A DNA stretch of 64,000 nt from Clostridia bacterium (lineage in GTDB: Bacteria; Bacillota; Clostridia; Oscillospirales; CAG-272), in assembly GCA_017556745.1 (NCBI GenBank), contig JAFYMF010000006.1, forward strand, positions 1 to 64,000, in the 5' to 3' direction. Shown here in pieces: positions 1,942-56,216 of this stretch. Positions within the stretch are counted from its first letter, which is position 1. Every line of letters starts with the position of its first letter. The notes below the pieces were generated by a model. The model ran no database searches, was not told the DNA's origin, and was given only the letters and a program-made list of their open reading frames with translations. The position numbers were made by a program, and so were the translations under genes.

Positions 1942-2208
1942 ATTATCGAAAACAAAAAGAAAGAAGAAGTGATCCGCTTCAAAACAACGACGGATCATAA
2001 AGCAAAAATCGAACGTGCCGCCGAGAAGCGCGGCATTACGGTATCGGAGTACCTTCGCCAATCGGTCAATTCCAAGTTGAGCCGAGAACGACCAATGGAT
2101 TGGTATCCGACTATTGAACGGCTTGAAGCTATCTGCGCGGGAGCAGACGGCGAAACGCGAGAGGCGCTGATCACTCTTATCCGTTCACTCTACAAGGGAG
2201 GCGCGTAA
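1942..2208 (+). CDS. Ribbon-helix-helix relaxosome accessory protein (MobC-like)
   Basis: Encodes about 88 residues. The N-terminal part has a single strand (EEVIRFKTTTDHKAKIERAAEK) followed by RGITVSEYLRQSVNSKL, a typical ribbon-helix-helix DNA-binding unit; the rest is helical. Such proteins bind oriT beside the relaxase. A strong AGGAGG at 1931-1936 is followed by no ATG, GTG or TTG at a useful distance; the codons at the right spacing are ATT (1942) and ATC (1945), so a rare start codon is likely. An open frame extends back to a TTG at 1861, but that N-terminus crosses the region after oriT and has no ribosome binding site. The stop overlaps the ATG of the relaxase gene by one base. Confidence 0.7.
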   Translation: MIENKKKEEVIRFKTTTDHKAKIERAAEKRGITVSEYLRQSVNSKLSRERPMDWYPTIERLEAICAGADGETREALITLIRSLYKGGA

Positions 2209-3596
2209 TGGCAGTAACGTCAATATGGGCGGTGCATCGGTCGATCAAGGATGCGCTTGATTATGCTGCAAATCCCGAAAAGACCGAGAACCCAAATGAA
2301 GAAGATCTCCGTCGCTTGATGGATTACGCCGAAAATCCCGACAAGACGGAACAGCGGTATCTGATCAGCGGTGTCAACTGCCTACCCGAACTTGCCTATG
2401 AACGTATGATGGAGACCAAGCGGCGATACGGCAAGTATGGCGGTATTGTAGCCTATCACGGCTATATGAGTTTCAAGCCCGGTGAGGTCACACCCGAGCA
2501 ATGCCACGCGCTCGGAGTGGAGCTTGCCAAGCGGTTGTGGGGCGACAAGTATGAGGTGTTGGTCGCAAGTCATAGAGACCACGAGCATCTGCATAACCAC
2601 TTTATTCTGAATAGCGTTAGCTTCAAGGACGGCGAGAAGTTTCACTGTCCGCCGTACTATCACGACATGGTTATGGCTCCTGCATCGGATAAGCTCAGTC
2701 TTGAATACAGCCTTTCGATCATTCAAAACCCGCAAAGAAAACGCGCGCCATACGTCGCGTATATGGCTGAGAAAAAAGGTAAGCCGTCTCACAGAACCCT
2801 CTTGAAGATGGACATTGACGATGCTATCGCGGATTGTATGTTGCCTACTCATTTACAGTTTGCTTTGGCAAGGCGTGGTTACACCTATCTGCGCGGGAAG
2901 GAGTACAAGCATCCTTGCGTAATAGCAAAAGGATGGAAAAGACCTGTCCGAATAGATAGTCTCGGAGAACGCTATACCGCAGAAGCAATCGAGAAGCGCA
3001 TATTGTCAAAACGAGGACTACGCGACTTGTACCGCCCTCAATATCCACCTCTTTATGAGATTTGGAAACGCCGTAAGGGATACGATCAACACAACACGGT
3101 GGAGCTTATCTTTATGATCGTGCTTGAACTGTTTGGCATCGACACAAGCTGTAAGCCGATGAATGTTGAGAATTATCAAGAACCGCTATCTCCCGCCATG
3201 CGCCAAGAGCAGATTTATTTAGAGCGTTATATGGAAACGGTCAATCTCATCAACCGCAACAATCTCGGTACTACCGAAGAAGTGCAGGAGTTCATCAACG
3301 ACAAAGAAGCGGAAATGGCTATGTTATTGTCAGCGCGTAACAAGGTCGATAACCGACGTCGTAGAGCCACAACAGAAGCGGAGAAGGACAAATGCTCCAT
3401 TAAGCGTAAGGCGATATCAAAAGAACTCAAGGCGCTTCGCCACGATATTAACTTGGCTAAGGGCATATTCCCAATGATCGAAAACCTAAAAGAAAAGCTC
3501 CGTATTGAAATGGAGCAAGAACAAGAAATGTTCCCGAGAGAAACGGGAGCGAAACCCCAACCTAAAATTAAAAGAAATGAGGACAGAAACAGATGA
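2208..3596 (+). CDS. Relaxase / mobilization nuclease (HUH family)
   Basis: The 462-residue protein matches the relaxase/mobilization nuclease family: it nicks one strand at oriT through a catalytic tyrosine and leads the strand into the recipient. The metal-binding histidine motif is visible as HRDHEHLHNH (residues 122-131), and Tyr19 (ALDYAANPEKT) is the likely nucleophile. A related segment, LMDYAENPDKTE, follows at residues 38-49 and looks like an internal duplication. The C-terminal 150 residues are charged and helical. The ATG overlaps the end of the ribbon-helix-helix gene, and the stop overlaps the next gene (ATGA), so translation is probably coupled across the cluster. No coupling protein or type IV secretion gene is in the window; these may lie to the left or be supplied in trans. 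Confidence 0.9.
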   Translation: MAVTSIWAVHRSIKDALDYAANPEKTENPNEEDLRRLMDYAENPDKTEQRYLISGVNCLPELAYERMMETKRRYGKYGGIVAYHGYMSFKPGEVTPEQCHALGVELAKRLWGDKYEVLVASHRDHEHLHNHFILNSVSFKDGEKFHCPPYYHDMVMAPASDKLSLEYSLSIIQNPQRKRAPYVAYMAEKKGKPSHRTLLKMDIDDAIADCMLPTHLQFALARRGYTYLRGKEYKHPCVIAKGWKRPVRIDSLGERYTAEAIEKRILSKRGLRDLYRPQYPPLYEIWKRRKGYDQHNTVELIFMIVLELFGIDTSCKPMNVENYQEPLSPAMRQEQIYLERYMETVNLINRNNLGTTEEVQEFINDKEAEMAMLLSARNKVDNRRRRATTEAEKDKCSIKRKAISKELKALRHDINLAKGIFPMIENLKEKLRIEMEQEQEMFPRETGAKPQPKIKRNEDRNR

Positions 3597-4495
3597 TAAA
3601 CCCTTTTGAAAACGTACACGGACACCGAAACGAGACGACCTGCGCATATGCGCTGACCAACATTTACCCGATGGAAAACCATCCCTTTAAGGTCAAGGAC
3701 GATGAGGATATGGCGGCTCTTGTAGAGAGCATTCGTCAGTACGGAGTGCTTAATCCCATTATCGTCCGCAAAAGACAGACGGGCGGCGGTTATGAGATCG
3801 TATCCGGACACAGACGATATGAGGCTTGCAAGAGGCTCAACAAGTTTGACATTCCCGTCATCGTCCGCGATCTTACCGACGAAGAAGCTATTCTTACAAT
3901 GGTAGATGCCAACCTTCAGCGAGAAAGAATACTCCCATCGGAGAAAGCCTTCGCCTACAAGATGAAAATGGACGTTCTGCGCCATCAAGGAAGTTCGTGC
4001 CAAGATGGCACGAAGCGCTCGGATGAAACTCTTGCCGAAAGCACAGACGATAGTGCCCGTCAGATTCAGAGATATATCCGCTTGACCTATCTTATCCCCG
4101 AGCTTTTGAAGATGGTGGACGAGGGTATCGTTCCGCTTACGGCAGGCGTGAACTATTCCTATATGCGCCAATTCGAGCAGTTGTCGGTATGGATGATGCT
4201 TATGGACAAGTCTATGTCGATCACGACGGATAAGACAGAAGAAATGAAGAATGCAAGTAAAACCAAGGAGCTTAACGAGGAAGATATTCGCGGATATTTC
4301 AAATGTAACGCCACCGAGTCGAAAGAAAAAGCGCCCAAGAAGCAGAGCGTGAAGTTTGCCTTTGACGAGATCTCGGACTTCTTTACCGATATGAAGCCGA
4401 AGGAGGTTAAGGACAAGATCATTGAGATTCTGTTCGCTTGGTACGACTCGCAGAAGAACCAAATAGTGGATGAAAACGGAGGTGAATCTTATTGA
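3593..4495 (+). CDS. ParB/RepB/Spo0J family protein 1
   Basis: The 300-residue protein has a ParB N-terminal domain: HPFKVKDDEDMAALVESI, then GVLNPIIVRKR, GYEIVSGHRRYEA and a LTDEEAILTMVDANLQRE segment, followed by the KorB-type helix-turn-helix around ARQIQRYIRLTYLIPELL. The SGHRR motif fits the CTP-binding box of ParB proteins. On mobile elements such proteins serve partition or regulate transfer genes. The ATG overlaps the relaxase stop. In the linker just before the helix-turn-helix the gene carries a perfect palindrome (3994-4014) encoding SSCQDGTK, and that palindrome also occurs in the upstream repeat region. A second, related parB gene follows at once. Confidence 0.9.
   Translation: MINPFENVHGHRNETTCAYALTNIYPMENHPFKVKDDEDMAALVESIRQYGVLNPIIVRKRQTGGGYEIVSGHRRYEACKRLNKFDIPVIVRDLTDEEAILTMVDANLQRERILPSEKAFAYKMKMDVLRHQGSSCQDGTKRSDETLAESTDDSARQIQRYIRLTYLIPELLKMVDEGIVPLTAGVNYSYMRQFEQLSVWMMLMDKSMSITTDKTEEMKNASKTKELNEEDIRGYFKCNATESKEKAPKKQSVKFAFDEISDFFTDMKPKEVKDKIIEILFAWYDSQKNQIVDENGGESY
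3994..4014. repeat. Perfect palindrome inside parB 1
   Basis: Arms TTCGTGCCA and TGGCACGAA with loop AGA. The same palindrome, less perfect, is at 513-535 and about 1609-1626. It could be a binding site for the ParB protein itself or a small mobile palindrome accepted in a flexible linker. Confidence 0.75.
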
Positions 4496-5344
4496 TCAAA
4501 GGAACTGACAGAAATATACCTCTTTCTGAGCTGCATCCATTTAAGGATCATCCTTACAAGGTAGAGGACAATATGGAGATGGATGCGCTGTGCGAGAGCA
4601 TCGGCAAAAGCGGTCTATTATCTCCCATTATCGTTCGACCTCGTGATGAAGGCGGTTATGAGATCATCTCGGGACACCGCCGCGTTAGAGCCTATCAGCG
4701 CCTCGGTATTAGCGAGATACCGTCTGCCGTCTGTGATATGACCGACGAAGAAGCAATCGTCGCAATGGTCGATGCTAACCTCCACAGAGATCATATCCTA
4801 CCATCTGAAAAAGCCTTCGCCTACAAAATGAAGCTCGATGCTATCAAACGCCAAGGTGAGCGCACCGATCTGACTTCTGCCCAATTTGGGCAGAGGTTGA
4901 CCTCGGTGGAAAAGATCGCCGCCGAGAGTGATGAAAGCAAATCCCAAGTGCAGAGGTATATCTGCCTCACGCGTCTTGTTCCCGAACTTCTTCAAATGGT
5001 GGATGACGGAAGAATCGCACTCACTCCTGCGGTAGAGCTTTCAAAACTTCATCGCCTCACTCAAAAGCTCATCTATGAGATCTGCGATATGGATGACCTT
5101 ACGCCGTCCTACTCGCAGACTGTCCGTATGCGAAAGCTTGCCGACGAGGGCGCACTTGGTGAGGATGCTATTCGTGAGATCATGAGCGAGGAGAAAGCTA
5201 ATCAGCGGGAGCGCATCGTGATCTATATGGACGATATACGTCAGTATTATCCCCGTAATATGCTCCCGAAGGATATTGTCGCCGACATTAAAAATCTCCT
5301 CCATAAGCGCCGTTTGGAACAAATGCGCAGAAAGGAGAATCGAG

Positions 5345-5355
<11 letters not shown>
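4492..5355 (+). CDS. ParB/RepB/Spo0J family protein 2
   Basis: A 287-residue paralogue of the preceding protein with the same layout: HPFKDHPYKVEDNMEMDALC, LLSPIIVRPRDEGGYEIISGHRR, a DEEAIVAMVDANLHRD segment and a helix-turn-helix near SQVQRYICLTRLVPELL. The start is TTG at 4492, overlapping the previous stop (TTGA) and preceded by GGAGGTG at 4479-4485. The linker before the helix-turn-helix again carries a palindrome (4876-4894), of different sequence but in the matching place. The two proteins probably have related but separate DNA targets. The last codons overlap the start of the next small gene by 11 bases. Confidence 0.9.
4876..4894. repeat. Perfect odd-centred palindrome inside parB 2
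   Basis: Arms TCTGCCCAA and TTGGGCAGA with a central T. It encodes SAQFGQ and lies at the position homologous to the palindrome in parB 1. Its CAA-N-TTG centre loosely resembles that of the palindrome at 1643-1667. Confidence 0.7.
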
Positions 5356-7307
<1,952 letters not shown>

Positions 7308-41772: not shown

Positions 41773-43770
41773 ATGGCTGAAAAGACCCGTAAAAAGGTTG
41801 AATATAATGATCAGAGTATATCTATGCTTAAAGGTGCTGACAGAGTCAGACTTCGTCCCGCGGTAATATTCGGTTCGGACGGACTTGAGGGTTGTGAGCA
41901 TTCGTTCTTTGAGATTCTTTCCAACTCTGTTGACGAGGCAAGAGAGGGATACGGAGACGTCATAGATATAACTGTATTTTCCGACAATTCCATACAGATA
42001 GAGGACCACGGCCGAGGTGTACCCATGGGGTACAATGAGGCTGAGGGCAGATATAACTGGGAACTTATATATTGCGAGCTCTATGCAGGCGGTAAGTATA
42101 ATAATAACGAGGAGTCCGCATACGAGTACTCTCTCGGTCTCAACGGCCTTGGTGCCTGTGCTACCCAGTACAGTTCCGCGTTCATGCACGTTTATTCCTA
42201 TGACGGACAGAACTGCTCCGAGATGCATTTTGAGAAGGGCGAGCCGAAGAGTGAGCTTACCGTTACACCTTTGCGCAAAAAACGTACCGGTACGGTGGTA
42301 CACTGGCTTCCCGACCTTGAGGTGTTCACCGATATAAATATTCCCTACGACTTTTTTACCGAGCTTCTCCGCCGTCAGTCGGTAGTTAACGCGGGAATAA
42401 AATTTGCCCTTCATTATGAAGACGAAAACGGCGACTTTATTGATACCGAGTACGAATATAAGAACGGTATAATTGACTATATCACCGAGCAGGCAGGGGA
42501 GAAGACTCTTACTCCTCCGGTATACTGGGAAAAGGAGACCAGAGGCCGCGACCGTGACGATAAGGATGATTACAAGCTGAAGATGCAGGTAGCATTCTGT
42601 GCCTCAAACAGTGTTAAGATGCTTGAGTATTATCACAACTCCAGCCATCTGGAGCACGGCGGTTCTCCCGACAGAGCGGTAAAGACCGCCTTCGTATTTG
42701 CCCTTGACAAATATATGAAGGCTACCGGTAAGTATAATAAAAACGAGTCCAAGATCACATTCGTTGACGTTGAGGACTGTCTTGTACTTGTTACCAATAG
42801 CTATTCCACTCAGACCTCATACGCAAACCAGACCAAAAAGGCGATAACCAATACCTTTATAGCCGAGGCAATGACCGCATTCCTCAAGGAACAGCTTGAG
42901 ATCTTCTTTGCGGAAAATCCCATGGCGGCAGAGGCTTTTGCAAATCAGGTACTGATAAATAAAAGAAGCCGTGAGCGTGCGGAGAGCACACGAATAGACA
43001 TTAAGAAGAAGCTGGTCGGCACAATGGACATAACCAACCGTGTTGAGAAATTCGTTGGATGCCGAAGCCGCGATCCCGAGCTTTGCGAACTTTATATTGT
43101 TGAGGGTGATTCTGCGCTTACCTCGGTCAAGTTGGCAAGAAATGCCGATTTCCAGGCGGTTATACCGGTAAGAGGTAAAACCCTTAACTGTCTCAAGTGC
43201 GGCTATGACAGGATCTTTAAGAGCGATATTATCGTTGATTTGCTCCGCGTTATCGGATGCGGCGTTGAGATAAACGGAAAGATAAAGGGCGATCTTGCTG
43301 CCTTTGATCTTGATGCACTCCGCTGGTCAAAGATAATCCTTTGTACCGATGCGGACGAGGACGGCTTCCAGATCCGTACTCTTCTTCTCACTATGTTTTA
43401 TAGGCTTCTTCCTACCCTTATCAAGGAGGGAAGAATATATATAGCGGAATCTCCTTTGTTTGAAATAACCGCAAAGGATGAAACTCTTTTTGCCTATAAC
43501 GAGTTTGAAAAGGCAGAGATAACCAAACGTCTTGAATCTGAGGGTAAAAAGTATACTCTTCAGCGATCCAAGGGACTTGGTGAGAACGAACCCGAAATGA
43601 TGAAGCTTACCACCATGGATCCCGCAACCCGACGTCTTATCAGGATCAATCCCTGTGATGCGGAGGCGACCGACAGAATATTCGATATCCTTCTTGGCGA
43701 CAACCTTCCCGCAAGAAAAGACTTTATTGCAGAGCACGGCAGTGAGTACGTTGCCGCGGCAGATATATAA
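41773..43770 (+). CDS. Type IIA topoisomerase ATPase subunit (GyrB/ParE family)
   Basis: The 665-residue subunit has the GHKL ATPase (EILSNSVDEAREG, EDHGRGVPMG, LGLNGLGACATQYS), the transducer and a TOPRIM domain with EGDSALTSVKLARN, PVRGKTLNCLKC and CTDADEDGFQIRTL metal residues. The ATPase motifs differ from standard GyrB (for example LSLGLNGLGA for the usual GGLHGVGA), so this is a divergent second B subunit rather than the main gyrase. ATG 41773 follows CGGAGGG. No A subunit lies next to it: a terminator and an opposing gene follow. ParE is the likely role, but this cannot be settled without the A partner. Confidence 0.92.
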   Translation: MAEKTRKKVEYNDQSISMLKGADRVRLRPAVIFGSDGLEGCEHSFFEILSNSVDEAREGYGDVIDITVFSDNSIQIEDHGRGVPMGYNEAEGRYNWELIYCELYAGGKYNNNEESAYEYSLGLNGLGACATQYSSAFMHVYSYDGQNCSEMHFEKGEPKSELTVTPLRKKRTGTVVHWLPDLEVFTDINIPYDFFTELLRRQSVVNAGIKFALHYEDENGDFIDTEYEYKNGIIDYITEQAGEKTLTPPVYWEKETRGRDRDDKDDYKLKMQVAFCASNSVKMLEYYHNSSHLEHGGSPDRAVKTAFVFALDKYMKATGKYNKNESKITFVDVEDCLVLVTNSYSTQTSYANQTKKAITNTFIAEAMTAFLKEQLEIFFAENPMAAEAFANQVLINKRSRERAESTRIDIKKKLVGTMDITNRVEKFVGCRSRDPELCELYIVEGDSALTSVKLARNADFQAVIPVRGKTLNCLKCGYDRIFKSDIIVDLLRVIGCGVEINGKIKGDLAAFDLDALRWSKIILCTDADEDGFQIRTLLLTMFYRLLPTLIKEGRIYIAESPLFEITAKDETLFAYNEFEKAEITKRLESEGKKYTLQRSKGLGENEPEMMKLTTMDPATRRLIRINPCDAEATDRIFDILLGDNLPARKDFIAEHGSEYVAAADI

Positions 43771-43828
43771 ATCAGAAAAAATGCCGTACATGACCTTAAC
43801 TTAATCAAAGTCCCAAAAGAACAGATAT

Positions 43829-43868
43829 CCCCCGCCAATCTCGTTTGAGAATGGCGGGGGTGTCTTTT
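43829..43868 (+). terminator. Terminator after the topoisomerase gene
   Basis: CCCCCGCCA and TGGCGGGGG arms with inner CTC/GAG pairing around GTTT, followed by TGTCTTTTT. Confidence 0.92.
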
Positions 43869-43883
43869 TGTTTCGTAAAATGC

Positions 43884-46800
43884 TTATTTCTTATTTTCGT
43901 CCATCAGTTTCTTTGCGCGTTCGATGTATTCCTTGAATCTTTCTTCATTGCGTACCGGGTTGAACCATTCCCAGCCGCGCGGCGCTGTCATGCCGTAGTA
44001 CATATTATCCGCACTCGGGTGGAACAGATAATCATAATCGAGCGGTTCTCTTGTTCCGTCGGGAAGTTCAATGACACCTTTACCTTTAATCAACTTGATG
44101 CCGCCGTAGATCAAAGGATTGCCAATCTCCAGGGCCTCGCCGTCAGGAATCTCTGCCCATTTCGGATAGAGTTCAAACGCGCGTTCAAGATAGCAGTATC
44201 CTTCCTCTTTGGTTTCGGGTGTATCGCATCCGAACAGTGCACACGCAGCAGCAAAATGCGCACGCCAGTATCGACCAAGCCATGCACGCGGGATCTCTCC
44301 GCCTTCTGCCAGAAATTCTACCATGCGGATATGGTACTTGCCCCATTCCGCTGCTTTTTCGGGCGCCGCCCAGTTGCGGTTGTCCCTGCCGAGGAAATGG
44401 CACAGGATGCGGAAGTTATTCACATCATGACGCAGGCGGCTTTCGTTGTGCTTCCCCTGATCCCAGAGCTGTTCTTCGATATGTTCATCCTGAATCGCTC
44501 CATACTGGGTAATCGGCGGCGGAAGATTGCGGATACCGGTCGCATCCTTGAAAATGACAATATTGTCGTCATCATCCGCCACATAGGTGTATTCCACACC
44601 GCCGACAAATCCGTCCGTCAGATCAAGCGCATCGTATCTGCGTACAAGTCCGTCTGCCATTGGCATGAATCCATCACCTGTGCCTGCGTAGGAAGTCAGC
44701 TCATAGACTGCTGTTCTCGCACCTTCGCAGTATTCGTTTTCCGTGCGGACGATACCGATGCCATCGGCAAAATAGTATACCTTCTTACCGCCGCGGTAGG
44801 CAAGACCGTCCTTCAAGCCTTCAATCTCCATCGATAGCTTTAGGCAGTTTTCAAATGTACCAGCTTTTGTGGTAATGCTTCCTCCATCCTCGCAGGTGAT
44901 ACGTGTTCTGACCGCATCTCCGTAATGATCATATTCCACCGTCGGAGCCGCACCGATTCTCCATTCGTCCGACCAGATGCAGTTTGCCGCATCCTGCAGA
45001 ATGCCGTAAATATCGTTGTAAAGAAGCGGTGTATCAGGCTCTCCCATGCCGCCAATGCTCTTGAGTTCAAACGACCAACGGTGATTGTGTGTAAAACTAA
45101 GCCTGCCATTTTTTTCGTATATGGCATATTTTGAAAAGGAATTCCAGTGTCCTGTATAACCACTGTCGGGTGTTTCCCCGCCAATGATCCGTCGGGCAAC
45201 GGATACTGCGGCTTTTGTGTGTGCCTTTTCCATGGGCGTTTGTGCCAACGCTTCCACCTTTTCAAGCGGAACGGAAATATCACCAAGTTTCCCTTCGCCA
45301 TTTTCGTAGATCCAGTATTCGTTACGGATCTCTTGAATCATATCAATCCAACTATTCTTATCATAACGGAATCGCTCTGCGAAATCTCTGGATGCAAGCA
45401 TTACCGTCTCATCATCCGCGTGGGTAACGGTAATGACAAGCTCAGAAACAAGAGCGTCATGATCGTACGTGTCCGCGTATTCCCACGTGTTGCCGGCCGC
45501 CAACGGAAGCAGTCCTTTTCCGCTGACGATTTTATAGGACTTTAGCAGCCGTACGTCGGTCAGGTCATCTACCGTGCGCTCGTATTTTACAATGCCGACA
45601 CCGGATTTGTACCAGACCTTGTTAACACAGTAACCGCTGTATTCAGCAAACAAACTGGTAATCCAAAGCTGACAGCCATCAAAAATGCCGCAGGGAGCTT
45701 CTACCGTTTCACCGGATGCGGCAAAGGTTAGTGTTGTACCGTCAGTACCTATCTTCGTCTCACCCACTGTCATCGTTTCATCAAAGAACCGGCCGTCACA
45801 GCGGGAGATGTTGTAAAAAAGATCAGGAAGCTGTCTGTCAATGGAGTTCATATAACCTTCGCTGTACGATTCCTGCTTCCAGTGTCGCAGACTACCGTTA
45901 ATTCTGCGTAGTTCATCGGCTGAAGCATTGTTCAGATACCGTTTACTGTTCTTATCGCGGTATCCCTCTTCCATCTTTTTTTCCACATCGCGTGCATATA
46001 CCGTTAGCGCATAGTATCTGTCTGCCGGTGTGAGAAGCGACTGTACCTTGTCAAATGCAGCCCAGCCGTTCTCCGTCTGTCCGTCACGGAAATACTGATA
46101 CCCCAGCCAGAACCATTCTCTTGCCAACGTACGTGTAAGCCCCGTTTTTTGGAGAAGTGGGATCTGCTTGTCGCGAATGAAGTCGATCTTCGCACTGCCC
46201 CAGACTTTGCTGTCCTCACGTGTGACGATAAATTCCATTACGTCATCGTTTTTACCCTTGATTGCCGCATCACGTATTCTTGCAAACAAAGCGTCGTTTT
46301 TATCACCCGGTAGCCACCACCAGCCTCGCATCAGCACATCTGCCAGTGCGTGATATTTGCTGTCTGATTCAGGCAGCTCTTCCACGTCACGAAGGACATC
46401 TTTGTATATGATCTCAAAGCCGCTTTTGTCGTTTTTCAGCTGCCAAAGCTTGAGTTCTTCAACCTTTTTCATGACTCTTTGTACCAACGTGTCATAATAT
46501 GTTTCGTTCATTGCACAAAGCTCCTTTCTTATTCGCTTTCTGCCATCATGGAGCTGCCGTTTGACGGTTCCCTCGGAAATGCGCATTCTATCCGCGATCT
46601 CCGCAACGGAAAGACCCTCGAAATAGTGGAGTTGAATGATGTTTCCCACCTTTTCCGGTAACTCCGCAAGACTTTTATAGAGCTCCTCTTTTTCCTCGGA
46701 GAATTCATACAGCTTGGCTGGGTTTGTTTTCGGGTCATCTGCGATATCGGCGTTTTTAAGCAGATCGAAATCAATGAAACTGCGGTATCTCATAACTGTG

Positions 46801-47057
46801 TTCAGTGCACAGTTTTTTGCAATACGGCAAACCCATGCGCCGAATTTGTCCGTCTGCTTGAGTGTATTCAGCTTTATCCATGCGGTAACAAACGCATCCT
46901 GTGTAACGTCCTCTGCCATGAAGCGACTGCGGGTGATCTGCATTGCCGATGCGATGACAGCGTTCTGATAACGAAGTACCAGCTTTTCAAAAGCTGATTG
47001 ATCTCCTGCCAACGTCAGCATGACCAATGTTTCATCGGTATAATTGTGATTTTGCAA
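43884..47057 (-). CDS. ECF sigma factor fused to a giant C-terminal extension
   Basis: A single uninterrupted frame of 1057 residues. Residues 10-90 are sigma-70 region 2 (AEDVTQDAFVTAWIKLNTL, DKFGAWVCRIAKN) and 122-182 are region 4 (LAELPEKVGNIIQLHYFEGLSVAEIADRM, then EGTVKRQLHDGRKRIRKEL). The remaining 870 residues have no membrane helix or signal peptide. About 190-400 look helical and TPR-like. A module repeats twice: at 450-527 and again at 724-808, each with an xxGxFxxC segment (CGIFDGCQ, AGTFENCLK), a GVGIV/GIGIV segment followed by R/K-x-E, and a LPLAAGNTWEY/MPMADGLVRRY segment. The tail (900-970) is again TPR-like. The repeated module resembles domains common in secreted lipoproteins. 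Start TTG follows AAAGGAG by eight bases. The gene stands alone. Confidence 0.9.
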   Translation of the reverse strand: MQNHNYTDETLVMLTLAGDQSAFEKLVLRYQNAVIASAMQITRSRFMAEDVTQDAFVTAWIKLNTLKQTDKFGAWVCRIAKNCALNTVMRYRSFIDFDLLKNADIADDPKTNPAKLYEFSEEKEELYKSLAELPEKVGNIIQLHYFEGLSVAEIADRMRISEGTVKRQLHDGRKRIRKELCAMNETYYDTLVQRVMKKVEELKLWQLKNDKSGFEIIYKDVLRDVEELPESDSKYHALADVLMRGWWWLPGDKNDALFARIRDAAIKGKNDDVMEFIVTREDSKVWGSAKIDFIRDKQIPLLQKTGLTRTLAREWFWLGYQYFRDGQTENGWAAFDKVQSLLTPADRYYALTVYARDVEKKMEEGYRDKNSKRYLNNASADELRRINGSLRHWKQESYSEGYMNSIDRQLPDLFYNISRCDGRFFDETMTVGETKIGTDGTTLTFAASGETVEAPCGIFDGCQLWITSLFAEYSGYCVNKVWYKSGVGIVKYERTVDDLTDVRLLKSYKIVSGKGLLPLAAGNTWEYADTYDHDALVSELVITVTHADDETVMLASRDFAERFRYDKNSWIDMIQEIRNEYWIYENGEGKLGDISVPLEKVEALAQTPMEKAHTKAAVSVARRIIGGETPDSGYTGHWNSFSKYAIYEKNGRLSFTHNHRWSFELKSIGGMGEPDTPLLYNDIYGILQDAANCIWSDEWRIGAAPTVEYDHYGDAVRTRITCEDGGSITTKAGTFENCLKLSMEIEGLKDGLAYRGGKKVYYFADGIGIVRTENEYCEGARTAVYELTSYAGTGDGFMPMADGLVRRYDALDLTDGFVGGVEYTYVADDDDNIVIFKDATGIRNLPPPITQYGAIQDEHIEEQLWDQGKHNESRLRHDVNNFRILCHFLGRDNRNWAAPEKAAEWGKYHIRMVEFLAEGGEIPRAWLGRYWRAHFAAACALFGCDTPETKEEGYCYLERAFELYPKWAEIPDGEALEIGNPLIYGGIKLIKGKGVIELPDGTREPLDYDYLFHPSADNMYYGMTAPRGWEWFNPVRNEERFKEYIERAKKLMDENKK

Positions 47058-47232
47058 TATGCATTCTCCTTTCGCAATCCTATGAAAATTTTCATTTTTT
47101 TAAGCGCTTGCCTTATAGACACAAATCAGAAAAAAAGGTTGTGCTGATTTCAAAAAAAAAATTGAAAAAATTCTGTACGGTAAAGTCAAAGAATGTAAGC
47201 AAGTCTTTACAGAGCTTTGACACCAAGATAAA

Positions 47233-47261
47233 AACCGCAAATCTGCTGATCTGCGGTTTCA
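47233..47261 (-). terminator. Terminator after the S66 peptidase gene
   Basis: AAACCGCA and TGCGGTTT arms with further ATC/GAT pairing; on the minus strand a TTTTTATCTT run follows. It separates the upstream operon from the sigma-fusion gene. Confidence 0.75.
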
Positions 47262-47280
47262 CTTAATGTCACTAAGGTTT

Positions 47281-48195
47281 TTACTTAATAAAATCCGAAA
47301 TATACGTTATTTTACCGTTATCTACTTCTACTTCTGCACCAATTGGTAGTATAGCGGTTACTATAGCGTGTCCGAAGCTGTTACACTTGACTATCGGGAA
47401 GGAATATTCTTTTGTGTAGTCAAGCACCCAGTCCTCGACCTGGGGATATTCTACACCGTCCTTTTGTAAACCGTGATTGTATCCGATAATTATACCGTTT
47501 ATCTTATCAAAAACTCCGTTTTGCTTATACTGTGTGAGAAGATACTGACATTTATTGTGGGGACAGGATAGATTTTCAAGTGCAAGAACTACGCCGTTCA
47601 TGTCGGGAATAAAGTCAGTGCCGAAAAGATGGGTTATTGTATTCATATTCGTACCGATAAGAGTACCGTGCATCTTACCCTCGCGTACAACCGTCATTTC
47701 GCAGTTTTTAAAACTGTCAACATTCGCATTCATAACAGCATCTATGAAGATAGAATACTGTCCGTTTTCGCATTTTTCACCACCGAAGTCAAGGAAGTTA
47801 GGACCGCTGAAGCTTACAAGTCCGGATTTTTTATAAAGAGCTACAAGAAGTGCGGTTACATTACTGTATCCCATGACTATCTTGGGGTGTTTTTTTATCT
47901 CCTCATAGTCAAGTAAGTCAAGGAAAGTGTTACAAGTGTCTCCGCCTGTGATGCAAATAATAGCCTTGACCTCGTCGTCAAGGAACATGTTCATCATATC
48001 TTCTGCCTTTTGGTAACGTGTTCCTACACTTCCGTGGTCATCCTCAAAAATGTGGTTGCCTCTTTTTATCTTAAAGCCTTGCTCCGTCAGAAAACGCTCT
48101 GCCGCGTAAAAAGTATCAATACCGTCACCGGTAATACTGTTTGACACACCGGTAACTCCGATAGTGTCGCCGAATTTCAGCTTTTTTGCTAACAT
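47281..48195 (-). CDS. S66-family peptidase (LD-carboxypeptidase/MccF-like)
   Basis: The 304-residue cytosolic Ser peptidase has the nucleophile in VMGYSNVTAL, Glu in VLALENL and the His near CNSFGHAIV. Relatives trim murein tetrapeptides (LdcA) or cleave toxic acyl-nucleotide peptides (MccF). The general length fits both groups; choice between them is not possible here. AAGGAGGAC precedes the ATG. It is the last gene of a minus-strand operon with the PPOX-fold and nitroreductase genes. Confidence 0.85.
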   Translation of the reverse strand: MLAKKLKFGDTIGVTGVSNSITGDGIDTFYAAERFLTEQGFKIKRGNHIFEDDHGSVGTRYQKAEDMMNMFLDDEVKAIICITGGDTCNTFLDLLDYEEIKKHPKIVMGYSNVTALLVALYKKSGLVSFSGPNFLDFGGEKCENGQYSIFIDAVMNANVDSFKNCEMTVVREGKMHGTLIGTNMNTITHLFGTDFIPDMNGVVLALENLSCPHNKCQYLLTQYKQNGVFDKINGIIIGYNHGLQKDGVEYPQVEDWVLDYTKEYSFPIVKCNSFGHAIVTAILPIGAEVEVDNGKITYISDFIK

Positions 48196-51527: not shown

Positions 51528-53843
51528 TTATACTGTGTAACGGCTGATTATCTCGTTTTGCGCGTTAGAATTAAGCTGAACGAACTGAATACTGAAACCA
51601 CCGATTCTGACGATAAGGTTACCGTGACGTTCTGGATGCTCCTTTGCATCCAGCAGATCCTCAAGATTAGCTGTGGTTATCTGTGCCATCTGACCGCCGG
51701 TCATCAGATAATCCTTCATGGTTGCAGCAACACTTGCTCGGAGCTCAGGGGTGGAGAGCAGCTTCTGGGTGAGAACAACGTTAAGAGTGGTTCCGCCTAC
51801 ACCCTTTTCAAGAGGAAGCTTTGCTACAGAGCGGAGCATAGCGGAAACACCGCTCTTATCGGCACCCGGACGAGGACCGATAGAGTTACCGAGAGGCTCA
51901 CCCTTAAAGCGTCCGTCAGGAAGAGCACCGGTTGAACGTCCAAGACTTATACCGCCGCCAAGAAGGGAACAAGCACCGGTGAAAACATCACCGCGTACAG
52001 ACTTGTATTTTGCGATTTCGTCCCAGAACAGGTTAAGAACACGTACTGCCATAGCATCGGCATCTTCATTGTCGTTACCGAACTTGGGAGCCATGTTGAG
52101 AAGCATCTGGCGCTCTTTTTCATATCCCTCAAAATTAGCATCAAGTGCGGCAATGAGGGTTTCCTTGGAAATCTTCTTCTCGTCGAATACCAGTTTCTTA
52201 ATAGCTACAAGTGAGTCGGAGGCTGCCGCAAGACCTGCGGTCTCGACTACACCGAAGTTGTATATAGGTCCGCCTGCATCGTGGGGAATACCCTTTTCAA
52301 GACATCCGTCTGTAAATATACCCTTAACCAGCTTTGCGTGGTTTGCGGCGCGGATCTCCTGACCTTTATTACAGAGATCAACAAACTTCTCGGTATGGAA
52401 CTTTATAACAGACTCAAATGCCGCAAAGAGATCCTCGAAGGTCTCATACTCCACAAAATCAGGGATCTTCGGTTCAGGCATTACATAGTCTGAATTGGTG
52501 CATTTTCCGCCGTGAATAGCATATTCAAGGGCACGAACGATATTGAACACACCGTCCTCACAACCGAAGTTACTTTTTCCGGGAATTTCTATTTCCTGAC
52601 ATCCAAGCATGGAGTAGTCACGCGCATCCTCAAGAGTAACGCCGATTCTTGTGAGTGCGGGAACAACGTTCTCGTCACTTACAACAGTGGGGTCGGACAT
52701 ACCCTCGGACCAGATAGTGGTAATGAGATCAAGGAGCTCATCGGGTGAATCCTTGTGAATACGTACAGATATTCTGGGGTGAGTATCATGTATGGTTCTG
52801 ATGGTCTGAAGCATCAGATAGGTAACGTCATTGGTAGAGTCCTCTCCGGTCTTGGGATTAACTCCGGAGATGGTTATATTGTGAGAACCGTTTTCCCATA
52901 CCTTGAGGATAAGGGATACGATAGAATCTTCCGGAGAAACAACGTCACCGTTTTCAACTGACTTCTTATAATACGGGTAGAGATACTGGTCGGCACGACC
53001 GATACAGTCAACCCAGTCCCAAAGACAGAGTGCCCAGGTAAGCTGAACTGCCTGATAGAGTGTTTCGGGCTTTTTATGTGCAACAAATGCACAGTTATCG
53101 GCAATCTTCTCATAGTATGTCTTCTGCAGAGTATCCTGTTCTTCCTCTGCAAGGCGGCGAGCCTCGTCAGCATATGCCTCGAGCCAAGCGGACATACCGC
53201 GAACGATTATGCGGTATGCCTCGTAGGTATTCTGGGTTTCATCGTCCTGTGAATTGATAACGGCATACTTGTTGATCTTCTCTATCATTCCATCAAGACC
53301 GTTATCAAGAAGGGTGTAGTAATTTGGAACGGTGTGACCCTGATAACCGCCTGCGGAATACAGGGAATCATTATCAACATGCTGGTAGAATTCTTTTCCG
53401 TATATCTTTTCACCGTGATCGTCAATGTGATTCATGTCAAGAGGGGTCATTCTTGCATGCAGTGCCAATCCCTCTTCCTTGGTGAGCCCGAATTTTTCAG
53501 GGGAATACTTATATGGGAAAGGACCCTTTATACCCCATGAAAAATGCTCAAGACTCTGATAGATCGGACGGGTGATACCGACGATGGCTTCATTCTTGAA
53601 TATCATCTTGGGTGTAACCATCCAGCTTTCTACAATAGAATTCGCAAGATTGATCACATAAGGTGTACCGGTATTTTTTGTGAATATTTCGCGGAAGGGA
53701 TCAAGGTCGTTCGTAGATGCAGGACTGACAGCAGTGTCCTCTCTGTCACGGTTTTCGTGAAGACGGGGGAGAACTTCATTATATGTCTCATTTATTCTTG
53801 TGGAAAAAACAAGTTTTTCCTCTGTGGATTTGTAATTTTTCAT
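51528..53843 (-). CDS. Glycyl radical enzyme, pyruvate formate-lyase family (GRE1)
   Basis: The 771-residue enzyme has the glycyl radical motif VRIGGFSIQFVQLN near the end (Gly749 by alignment to RVxGY) and the active-site cysteine Cys415 in DYSMLGCQEIEIPGKSNFG. The C-x-E arrangement (Cys415, Glu417) is that of dehydratase/lyase-type enzymes (glycerol dehydratase, choline lyase, 4-hydroxyproline dehydratase), not the CC of pyruvate formate-lyase. The motif after it (IEIPGKSNFG) differs from the usual EPQ-type sequence, so the substrate cannot be assigned. Radical chemistry of this kind is O2-sensitive. It is the third gene of an operon after the activase and GRE2, with CAGGAGG before the ATG. 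Confidence 0.9.
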   Translation of the reverse strand: MKNYKSTEEKLVFSTRINETYNEVLPRLHENRDREDTAVSPASTNDLDPFREIFTKNTGTPYVINLANSIVESWMVTPKMIFKNEAIVGITRPIYQSLEHFSWGIKGPFPYKYSPEKFGLTKEEGLALHARMTPLDMNHIDDHGEKIYGKEFYQHVDNDSLYSAGGYQGHTVPNYYTLLDNGLDGMIEKINKYAVINSQDDETQNTYEAYRIIVRGMSAWLEAYADEARRLAEEEQDTLQKTYYEKIADNCAFVAHKKPETLYQAVQLTWALCLWDWVDCIGRADQYLYPYYKKSVENGDVVSPEDSIVSLILKVWENGSHNITISGVNPKTGEDSTNDVTYLMLQTIRTIHDTHPRISVRIHKDSPDELLDLITTIWSEGMSDPTVVSDENVVPALTRIGVTLEDARDYSMLGCQEIEIPGKSNFGCEDGVFNIVRALEYAIHGGKCTNSDYVMPEPKIPDFVEYETFEDLFAAFESVIKFHTEKFVDLCNKGQEIRAANHAKLVKGIFTDGCLEKGIPHDAGGPIYNFGVVETAGLAAASDSLVAIKKLVFDEKKISKETLIAALDANFEGYEKERQMLLNMAPKFGNDNEDADAMAVRVLNLFWDEIAKYKSVRGDVFTGACSLLGGGISLGRSTGALPDGRFKGEPLGNSIGPRPGADKSGVSAMLRSVAKLPLEKGVGGTTLNVVLTQKLLSTPELRASVAATMKDYLMTGGQMAQITTANLEDLLDAKEHPERHGNLIVRIGGFSIQFVQLNSNAQNEIISRYTV

Positions 53844-53891
53844 TGTACACCTCCTGGGGATGTTTACTTTTTGTCTGTTCCTGGTGTTACT

Positions 53892-56216
53892 TTAGGCGGA
53901 GTAACGGCTGATTATTTCGTCCTGAGATGTCTCATTAAGCTGAACGAACTGTATACTGAAACCGCCTATTCTGACGATGAGGTTTCCGTGACGCTCGGGA
54001 TGTACCTTCGCATCAAGCAGATCCTCAAGATTAGCTGTAGTTATCTGTGCCATCTGACCGCCGTTCATAAGATAGTCCTTTACGGTAGCGGCTACATTCT
54101 TACGGAGCTCAGGGGTAGATAACAATCTTTGGGTGAGAACCACATTAAGAGTGGTTCCTCCTACACCCTTTTCAAGGGGAAGCTTTGCTACAGAGCGGAG
54201 CATAGCGGAAACACCGCTCTTATCAGCACCGGGACGGGGGCCCATGGAGTTACCGAGGGGTTCTCCCTTAAAACGTCCGTCGGGAAGAGCGCTTGTGGAC
54301 CAGCCGTATCTTATGCCCTCCTCAAGAAGAGAACATGCACCGGTAAATACGTCTCCTCTTACAGATTTATATTTTGCTATCTCATCCCAGAAAAGGTTAA
54401 GAACCTTTACTGCCATTTCATCTGCTTCGTCATTGTCATTTCCGAACTTGGGAGCCATGTTGAGAAGCATCTGGCGCTCCTTCTCATATCCCTCGAAGTT
54501 AGCTGCCATAGCCGCGGCGAGGGTTTCCTTGGATATCTTCTTCTCCTCAAATACAAGCTTTTTGATTGCCACGAGAGAGTCTGAAACAGCCGAGATACCC
54601 GCAGTCTCGATAACACCGTAGTTATATATAGGACCGCCGCAGTCGTGGGGGATACCCTTTTCAAGACAACCGTCTGTGAATATACCCTTAACCAACTTTG
54701 CGTGGTTTGCGCCGCGAATTTCCTGACCAAGATTACAGAGGGTTATGAAATGCTCTGTATAGTATGATAAAAGTTTTGCGAAGGTGTCGTACAGCTCGTC
54801 AAATGACTCATATTCTGTAAGATATTTTGCCGCGGGAGCCGCCTCACCACCAAGAATAAAGTCGTATTTAGGACTCTTTCCTGCGTAAAGTGCGTATTCG
54901 AATACTGCGGCAACGTTAAAGGATCCGTCCTCGCAACCGAAGTTACTCTTTCCGGGAATTTCAATTTCCTGGCAACCAAGCATGGTATAGTCGCGTGCAT
55001 CTTCTATCGGAACACCGATCCTCATAAGTGCCGGAATAACATTCTCGTCACTTACAACAGTAGGGTCAGACATTCCCTCAGACCAGATCTTGGTAATAAG
55101 CTCCATAATACAGTCGGGAGTTTCCTTGTGGATTCTCACCGATACTCTGGGGTGAGTATCGTGTATGGTACGGATGGTCTGAAGTATGAGGTAAGTCAGA
55201 TCGTTTGATGCATCACTGCCGTCAACGGGCTTTACACCTGCAATGGTAATATTATGAACTCCGTTTTCCCATGTCTTGAGAATAAGAGAGGTTATCGATT
55301 CTTCGGGAGACACTACGTCACCGTTTTTCATTGAGTATTCGTAGTAGGGGAGCAGATACTGGTCTGTACGGCCGATGCAGTCAACCCAGTCCCAAAGGCT
55401 GAGTGTCCATACCAGCTGAACTGCTTGGTAGAGAGTCACAGGTTTCTTGTGCGCAACAAATGCGCAGTTGTCGGCTATATCTGTATAGTATTTTTTCTGT
55501 GTCTCGTCACTTTCCCCAGAGGCAAGGCGAAGTGCTTCATCAGCGTATGCTTCAAGCCAAGCAGACATGCCACGAATGATTATGCGGTATGCCTCGTAGG
55601 TGTTCTGAGTTTCATCGTCCTGTGCATTGATAGCGGCATACTTGTCGATCTTTTCCATCATTCCGTCAAGGCCGTTATCAAGGAGAGTGTAGTAGTTGGG
55701 AACGGTGTGCCCCTGATATCCGCCTGCGGTGAACAGTCCGTCTCCCCATGTGCGGTCAAAGCCTCGTTCACCGAAAATCTCGATTCCTTTTTTGCCTATA
55801 TGATGACCGCCAAGAGGCTCCATGCGGCGGGTAAGCTCATTCGCTTCTTCCTGAGAAAGTCCGAATTCATCGGGATGATCCTGAGCATGCTCTGCATTGA
55901 GTATACCCCATGAAAAGTGCTCTTTTACGGCATAATCAGGTCGGGTAATTCCTACTATTGCTTCATTTTTGAATATGAGTTTTGGAGTTATCATCCATGA
56001 ATGTACTATTGCGTGTGCAAGAGTGGTAACGTACGGTTCATTCTTACGGAGGATAAAGGTTTCTACAAACGGATTCTTGCCGTTTGTATCGACTGGACTG
56101 GTTTCTGTTCCCTCTCTGTCGCGGTTGCCTTTTACCCGTGTAAGCACCTCTTCGTAGGTGTTTTTTATTCTATCTGTAAAAATCAGTTTTTCTTCAGTAC
56201 TTTTGTAGTTGTTCAT
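53892..56216 (-). CDS. Glycyl radical enzyme, pyruvate formate-lyase family (GRE2)
   Basis: The 774-residue paralogue of GRE1 has Cys415/Glu417 in DYTMLGCQEIEIPGKSNFG and Gly752 in VRIGGFSIQFVQLN. The first 430 residues align to GRE1 without gaps, and the C-terminal 250 are almost the same; differences cluster at about 100-160 (LNAEHAQDHPDEFG against PFPYKYSPEKFG) and 450-480, which may shape the substrate pocket. Another difference is CSLLEEGIRYGWSTSALP here against CSLLGGGISLGRSTGALP in GRE1. GGAGG precedes the ATG. It follows the activase gene and precedes GRE1 by 48 bases. Confidence 0.9.
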   Translation of the reverse strand: MNNYKSTEEKLIFTDRIKNTYEEVLTRVKGNRDREGTETSPVDTNGKNPFVETFILRKNEPYVTTLAHAIVHSWMITPKLIFKNEAIVGITRPDYAVKEHFSWGILNAEHAQDHPDEFGLSQEEANELTRRMEPLGGHHIGKKGIEIFGERGFDRTWGDGLFTAGGYQGHTVPNYYTLLDNGLDGMMEKIDKYAAINAQDDETQNTYEAYRIIIRGMSAWLEAYADEALRLASGESDETQKKYYTDIADNCAFVAHKKPVTLYQAVQLVWTLSLWDWVDCIGRTDQYLLPYYEYSMKNGDVVSPEESITSLILKTWENGVHNITIAGVKPVDGSDASNDLTYLILQTIRTIHDTHPRVSVRIHKETPDCIMELITKIWSEGMSDPTVVSDENVIPALMRIGVPIEDARDYTMLGCQEIEIPGKSNFGCEDGSFNVAAVFEYALYAGKSPKYDFILGGEAAPAAKYLTEYESFDELYDTFAKLLSYYTEHFITLCNLGQEIRGANHAKLVKGIFTDGCLEKGIPHDCGGPIYNYGVIETAGISAVSDSLVAIKKLVFEEKKISKETLAAAMAANFEGYEKERQMLLNMAPKFGNDNDEADEMAVKVLNLFWDEIAKYKSVRGDVFTGACSLLEEGIRYGWSTSALPDGRFKGEPLGNSMGPRPGADKSGVSAMLRSVAKLPLEKGVGGTTLNVVLTQRLLSTPELRKNVAATVKDYLMNGGQMAQITTANLEDLLDAKVHPERHGNLIVRIGGFSIQFVQLNETSQDEIISRYSA

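Follow-up and report, generated by a model that had tools for sequence, protein, structure and literature searches.

A gene in the window, a stretch of 64,000 nucleotides from Clostridia bacterium GCA_017556745.1 (contig JAFYMF010000006.1, positions 1-64,000), encodes an ECF sigma factor fused to a very large soluble tail that combines a TPR-like stack, tandem DUF3108-like beta modules, and a module shared with XRE-type regulators. The source is an uncultured gut Clostridia-type bacterium with a genome of 2.43 Mb. The protein belongs to a known kind, the ECFs with a C-terminal regulatory extension, and its tail differs in size and composition from those reported in the literature searched. We consider the chances slightly better than even that it is a self-contained, autoregulated soluble ECF with a tail that takes the role of an anti-sigma factor and senses a ligand, probably a hydrophobic one. 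To an earlier, sequence-only reading of this DNA we add the XRE-type module at the C-terminus, the common promoter and the palindrome at its start site, a paralogue, and the finding that the family is confined to one order in the genomes searched. The positions of the features are listed in Table 1.

Table 1. Features of the fusion gene and its upstream region (positions in the window).
Feature	Position	Strand	Remark
ECF sigma factor fusion gene	43884..47057	-	single uninterrupted ORF, 1057 codons/aa, TTG start
Sigma region 2 (residues 8-97)	46767..47036	-	Pfam PF04542; model
Sigma region 4 (residues 113-182)	46512..46721	-	Pfam PF08281; model
TPR-like helical stack (residues 186-366)	45960..46502	-	profile, model
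First DUF3108-like beta module (residues 372-516)	45510..45944	-	profile, repeat comparison, model
Second DUF3108-like beta module with helical insert (residues 517-798)	44664..45509	-	PF21347; profile match 4fvs/3fzx
Partial third repeat, three strands (residues 799-846)	44520..44663	-	model strands 805-844
C-terminal module (residues 848-1056)	43890..44516	-	also C-terminal in XRE/HTH_3 regulators
Ribosome binding site AGGAG	47066..47070	-	from sequence; 8 nt upstream of TTG
Second palindrome ATGAAAATTTTCAT	47082..47095	.	in leader
Start-site palindrome AAGCGCTT	47102..47109	.	perfect palindrome near expected transcription start
ECF-type promoter CAACCTTTTTTTCTGATTTGTGTCTAT	47115..47141	-	AACC 47140-47137, GTCT 47120-47117
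Terminator-like hairpin AAACCGCA..TGCGGTTTTTAT	47229..47259	-	after upstream gene; by eye

The earlier reading had allowed that a frameshift or contig error might have joined two genes. Homologues in many genomes are colinear and open, and GC3 is uniform over the whole reading frame (0.50-0.56). These results ruled out the artefact and indicate that the fusion is genuine. No membrane helix or hydrophobic segment was found in the 1057-residue protein, in which the highest 19-residue hydropathy was 0.98, and the N-terminus is occupied by sigma region 2, not by the signal peptide and lipobox of DUF3108_like exported lipoproteins. The absence of a signal peptide and membrane helix noted from the sequence was thus borne out, and we infer that the protein is cytosolic. 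An Rfam scan of positions 43600-47400 gave no match at the gathering threshold.

Pfam analysis of the full protein detected Sigma70_r2 at residues 26-90 and Sigma70_r4_2 at residues 124-176. The modelled region 2 was superposed on region 2 of E. coli sigmaE (4lup_A) with Z 13.4 (91 residues aligned, rmsd 2.1), and the modelled region 4 on 2h27_D with Z 10.6 (69 aligned, rmsd 1.5). Regions 2 and 4 are therefore complete, as had been claimed from the sequence, and region 3 is absent, as in ECF (group 4) sigma factors. The layout described earlier also held, with small corrections to its boundaries: region 4 ends near residue 180 and the extension comprises approximately 875 residues. Two predicted models gave the domain layout with good confidence. 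The first, of the whole layout (mean pLDDT 86, pTM 0.71), contained sigma2, an ill-determined linker, sigma4, the TPR-like stack, two beta modules, the partial third repeat, and a helical C-terminal module. Confidence was low for the linker between sigma2 and sigma4 and for the junction with the tail, so that contacts between the tail and the sigma domains cannot be read from the model.

The profile of residues 186-366 matched TPRs of designed consensus sequence (E 2e-40) and gave a weak match to NprR, and helices spanned residues 214-363 in the predicted model, in agreement with the TPR-like helices recognized earlier. The modelled stack aligned with NprR (5dbk_A) over residues 181-342 (Z 9.8, 156 aligned, rmsd 4.9). 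The fusion has the repeat fold alone in common with NprR and other RRNPP-type TPR regulators, a family-level sequence match being absent.

Most of the tail consists of a tandem of DUF3108-like beta modules, probably of YmcC/LolA type, spanning residues ~372-846. DUF3108_like (PF21347) was found at residues 726-774 with 32.9 bits, above the curated Pfam cut-off of 27, and was matched by 31 of 31 family members at E <= 0.01. Comparison of the profiles of residues 366-516 and 517-798 revealed a repeat over 97 columns (98.5% probability, E 4e-15), in which CGIFDGCQ..SGVGIVKYER was paired with AGTFENCLK..DGIGIVRTEN. These first two motif pairs of the repeated module proposed from the sequence were thus confirmed, but the third pair, LPLAAGNTWEYA/MPMADGLVRRYD, is seen by eye and is not significant by profile (E 0.1). 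Residues 799-846 also resemble residues 517-565 by eye, a likeness that was not significant in the profile comparison.

The beta-module profile further matched two solved structures, the Parabacteroides 'putative lipoprotein' 4fvs (E 7e-6) and the Bacteroides 'putative exported protein' 3fzx (E 5e-5). Both matches take in the AGTF-C and GVGIVR motifs, which upholds the earlier impression of a pattern typical of secreted or lipid-anchored proteins. The model of residues 361-850, containing the beta pair, had a pLDDT of 92.5 and a pTM of 0.88. Fold matches to solved relatives were modest overall (Z 4.6-5.8), including those to 3fzx (Z 5.2, 116 aligned, rmsd 4.0) and to LolA3 9tp6_B (Z 5.8, 145 aligned, rmsd 4.3), and the weak structural neighbours included Ups1, PR-10, and LolA-like hollow folds. 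The predicted structure therefore places the modules, modestly, among YmcC-like and LolA-like proteins. DUF3108_like/DUF3108 exported lipoproteins with the YmcC-like fold (4fvs, 3fzx) share the AGTF-C..GVGIVR pattern and probably a barrel-like beta fold with the fusion protein, whereas the copy described here is duplicated, carries a helical insert, is fused to a sigma factor, and is probably cytosolic.

At least 26 extended ECF groups have been reviewed, with extensions of ~70 to 400 residues, and ECFs that lack anti-sigma factors and carry C-terminal extensions are controlled by their fused tails (PMC8999054). The protein described here is like these ECFs in that sigma2 and sigma4 are followed in frame by a conserved soluble C-terminal domain and no anti-sigma gene adjoins; it differs in its tail of ~875 residues, made up of TPR, tandem DUF3108-like, and XRE-shared modules. 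The extension had been called far larger than those known, and it indeed exceeds the reported maximum of 400 residues (PMC8999054). Neither an ECF group with this tail nor a DUF3108- or LolA-type sigma fusion is reported in the literature searched, outside which the 2021 ECF re-classification lies, and the earlier suggestion that the extension might be a common domain of a characterised ECF subgroup found no such group there. When Pfam was searched with the full protein, hits up to E of 1 included no SnoaL family, that is, no C-terminal domain of the ECF41/ECF56 type.

By analogy with these tail-controlled ECFs, the tail may gate the sigma domains when a ligand is bound in the beta modules. 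The large C-terminal tail would stand in for an anti-sigma factor, with the TPR-like stack connecting it to sigma4. The tandem YmcC/LolA-type modules would bind an intracellular ligand, probably hydrophobic, and binding would alter the packing of the tail on the sigma domains and thereby set their access to core RNA polymerase. If this is true, the range of ECFs with built-in control reaches tails over twice as large as those given in the review, and modules of exported lipoproteins have been recruited for cytosolic signalling.

The tail might instead be a platform for a protein partner encoded elsewhere, with the TPR stack and the beta modules binding this partner and the partner doing the sensing, as proposed for ECF42. 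The TPR-like stack adjoins sigma4, and ECF42 proteins, which have TPR tails of ~200 residues, are thought to act through protein partners (PMC8999054). However, beta modules related to exported lipoproteins make up the bulk of the tail, of which the TPR-like stack behind sigma4 is a minor fraction, and a conserved neighbour is absent. ECF42 is also marked by a YCII-domain neighbour; the 34 loci of the present fusion were compared for recurrence of neighbour families, and none recurs in a partner-like way. We regard the partner platform as rather unlikely.

The genes next to the fusion were named by inspection. A topoisomerase B-like gene is convergent with it and an LD-carboxypeptidase-like gene lies upstream. 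The terminator-like hairpin after the latter, which the scan did not flag since its loop is longer than 8, separates the upstream gene from the sigma gene, suggesting that the sigma gene is its own transcription unit. No anti-sigma gene adjoins it, and no partner-like recurrent neighbour family was detected among 34 loci; the earlier statement that no anti-sigma gene is adjacent therefore applies to the window locus and across these loci. The loci therefore give no indication of an anti-sigma factor linked to the fusion gene. The commonest neighbour family was an ABC-transporter ATPase group (7 of 34 loci), and XRE-type regulators neighboured the fusion gene in 3 of 34.

Upstream of the gene, an ECF-type promoter of the layout CAACCTTTT-N12-GTCT was found. 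With a fixed relaxed pattern it was present in 47 of 60 homologues, compared with a mean of 0.8 and a maximum of 3 in shuffles, so that the comparison of upstream motifs proposed earlier revealed a common promoter. Sigma2 and sigma4 would form holoenzyme at CAACCTTTT-N12/13-GTCT promoters, the gene's own included. The presence of this promoter before the gene itself suggests, from the sequence, that the protein switches itself on (positive autoregulation). In the divergent members L045 and L046 the -10 has become GCACTT, which is what co-evolution of sigma factor and promoter would produce.

In the bacterium's own 2.43-Mb genome, the stricter pattern matched before the fusion gene and its paralogue only. 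A looser pattern added the gene of a 575-aa ECF fusion and one site inside a coding region, so that all intergenic matches lay in front of large ECF fusion genes, namely those of the window, the paralogue, and the 575-aa protein. This search found no convincing target promoter other than those of sigma genes. The sigma domain might mainly set the level of the protein, with a regulon of one, while the tail does the work, for instance by buffering or carrying a hydrophobic compound in the cytosol. The strict searches, which gave sigma fusion genes with the other match inside a coding region, fit this reading; however, the search pattern was the gene's own promoter, and target promoters may be weaker. 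To our knowledge, there is no precedent for a sigma factor with a regulon of one, and we consider this reading very unlikely. In other genomes, candidate sites were seen before membrane or lipoprotein genes at L151, L154, and L155, but as single cases they were left out of account. The genome of L155 lacks a close homologue of the fusion; there (1153-1240), a CAACCTTTTTTGCCTTTTTACGTCTTT site lies in front of a gene for a DUF4349 lipoprotein.

Members of the 575-aa fusion family, whose sigma domain is only ~25% identical to that of the window gene, share its promoter and carry a separate dyad, GAAAGCTTTC. Because so distant an ECF fusion shares the promoter, another sigma factor could drive all these promoters. 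One sigma factor of the cell would then read every CAACCTTTT..GTCT promoter and drive several large ECF fusions, and the dyads would provide gene-specific control by repressors. The occurrence of one promoter before the window gene, the paralogue, and the 575-aa fusion, with a separate dyad for each family, is consistent with such a network. On the other hand, promoter and gene stay together in many genera, and the divergent -10 in divergent members fits self-recognition; we consider the network unlikely. The 575-aa family comprises L010 1049-2773 (contig C8 of the own genome) and L169-L178, with an extra base at the dyad centre in two members. By inspection, L012 833-2476 encodes an ECF sigma factor whose extension seemingly has a membrane segment and Asp/Cys-rich repeats (DLDGDCYCDDC etc.). 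The own genome contained 25 Sigma70_r2 matches, several of them in frames of 458-1071 aa, indicating that the lineage commonly carries large ECF fusions.

A perfect palindrome of at least 6 bp, centred 11-13 nt past GTCT, was present in 38 of 55 promoters. As a control, three-position windows from 27 nt before GTCT to 5 nt after it held 0-4 palindromes. The cores vary by lineage (AAGCGCTT, GCAGCTGC, TGAAAGCTTTCA, CAGATGCATCTG, GGTACC, and others) and changed at least 14 times on the tree with the symmetry kept. A dyad of constant symmetry and changing sequence suggests a candidate site for a symmetric protein dimer. In the autoregulated reading that we prefer, it would be the probable site of a dimeric repressor curbing the positive loop. 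The AACC..GTCT promoter with the start-site dyad would be a directly testable layout, usable to find other members. A further reading appears rather improbable: an anti-sigma-free sigma factor would have lipoprotein-type barrel modules as its cytosolic sensor and its own promoter as its main or only one, and its dyad, constant in symmetry and changing in sequence, would be a gene-private operator, so that the several ECF fusions of one cell could form separately addressable self-loops.

Two other causes of the palindrome were considered. An RNA hairpin is disfavoured in our judgement, as the palindromes are symmetric right through their centre and some have cores of only 6-8 nt. Host restriction sites were rejected, as the window shows no strong avoidance of AGCGCT (6 occurrences against 7.2 expected). 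Many long-form homologues have leader palindromes of varying sequence in roughly the position of the second palindrome here, and in the upstream regions of L024-L102 a second palindrome often lies 15-18 nt beyond the start-site palindrome. A palindrome on the -35 side, at offset -42 to -40, was seen in 20 of 55 upstream regions; A/T-rich runs such as AAATTT may account for it.

The last part of the protein, residues 848-1056, is homologous to the C-terminal half of XRE/HTH_3 regulators of 380-400 aa from the same bacteria. These regulators differ from the fusion in that their DNA-binding part is HTH_3, not sigma, and their upstream regions look sigmaA-like. A PDB sequence search with this module gave no match. 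The module is missing from short-form homologues, and the long form (~1050 aa) is one clade with support of 98/98 in a tree of the shared part, indicating, most simply, a single gain. In the long-form clade, which would have acquired it a single time, the module would serve as an extra part for sensing or oligomerisation. Its exchange with one-component XRE repressors links two kinds of regulator. In one genome (L024), an XRE regulator carrying the module is encoded directly upstream of the fusion gene. In the XRE regulators L053, L056, L058, and L059, a palindrome (AGGTGCGCACCT or similar) lies just past the sigmaA-like -10.

The search for the same fusion in other genomes, proposed earlier, covered 97 relatives and revealed homologues that are colinear over their full length, with 25-62% identity; they occur in many genera of one order. 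Approximately 34 loci were found in the species-level genome collection, mostly in Oscillospiraceae or Clostridia MAGs, many of them from herbivore gut. The beta modules were present in 32 of 245 genomes sampled from the order (20 of 127 genera, several families), in frames nearly always of ~850-1150 residues. Among the few shorter frames were one disrupted copy and a 596-aa sigma fusion of simpler build that has just one such module, and the beta pair is almost exclusive to long sigma fusions in these 245 genomes. A single-sequence search of 398 phylum-wide genomes gave no match except in the window's own genome. In the genomes searched, the fusion family is thus confined to a single order. 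A second copy in the own genome is probably split over two contig ends, C7 and C32. At L206, a sigma gene (288 aa) and a tail gene (566 aa) overlap; this looks like a copy-specific frameshift and was rejected as a natural two-gene form.

Elsewhere in the window, two similar tandem genes (51528-56216; 771 and 774 aa) resemble glycyl radical enzymes of the pyruvate formate-lyase type. Positions 2208-7307 contain a relaxase-like gene, two ParB-like genes, and a serine-recombinase-like gene in series, which probably constitute an integrated mobile element.
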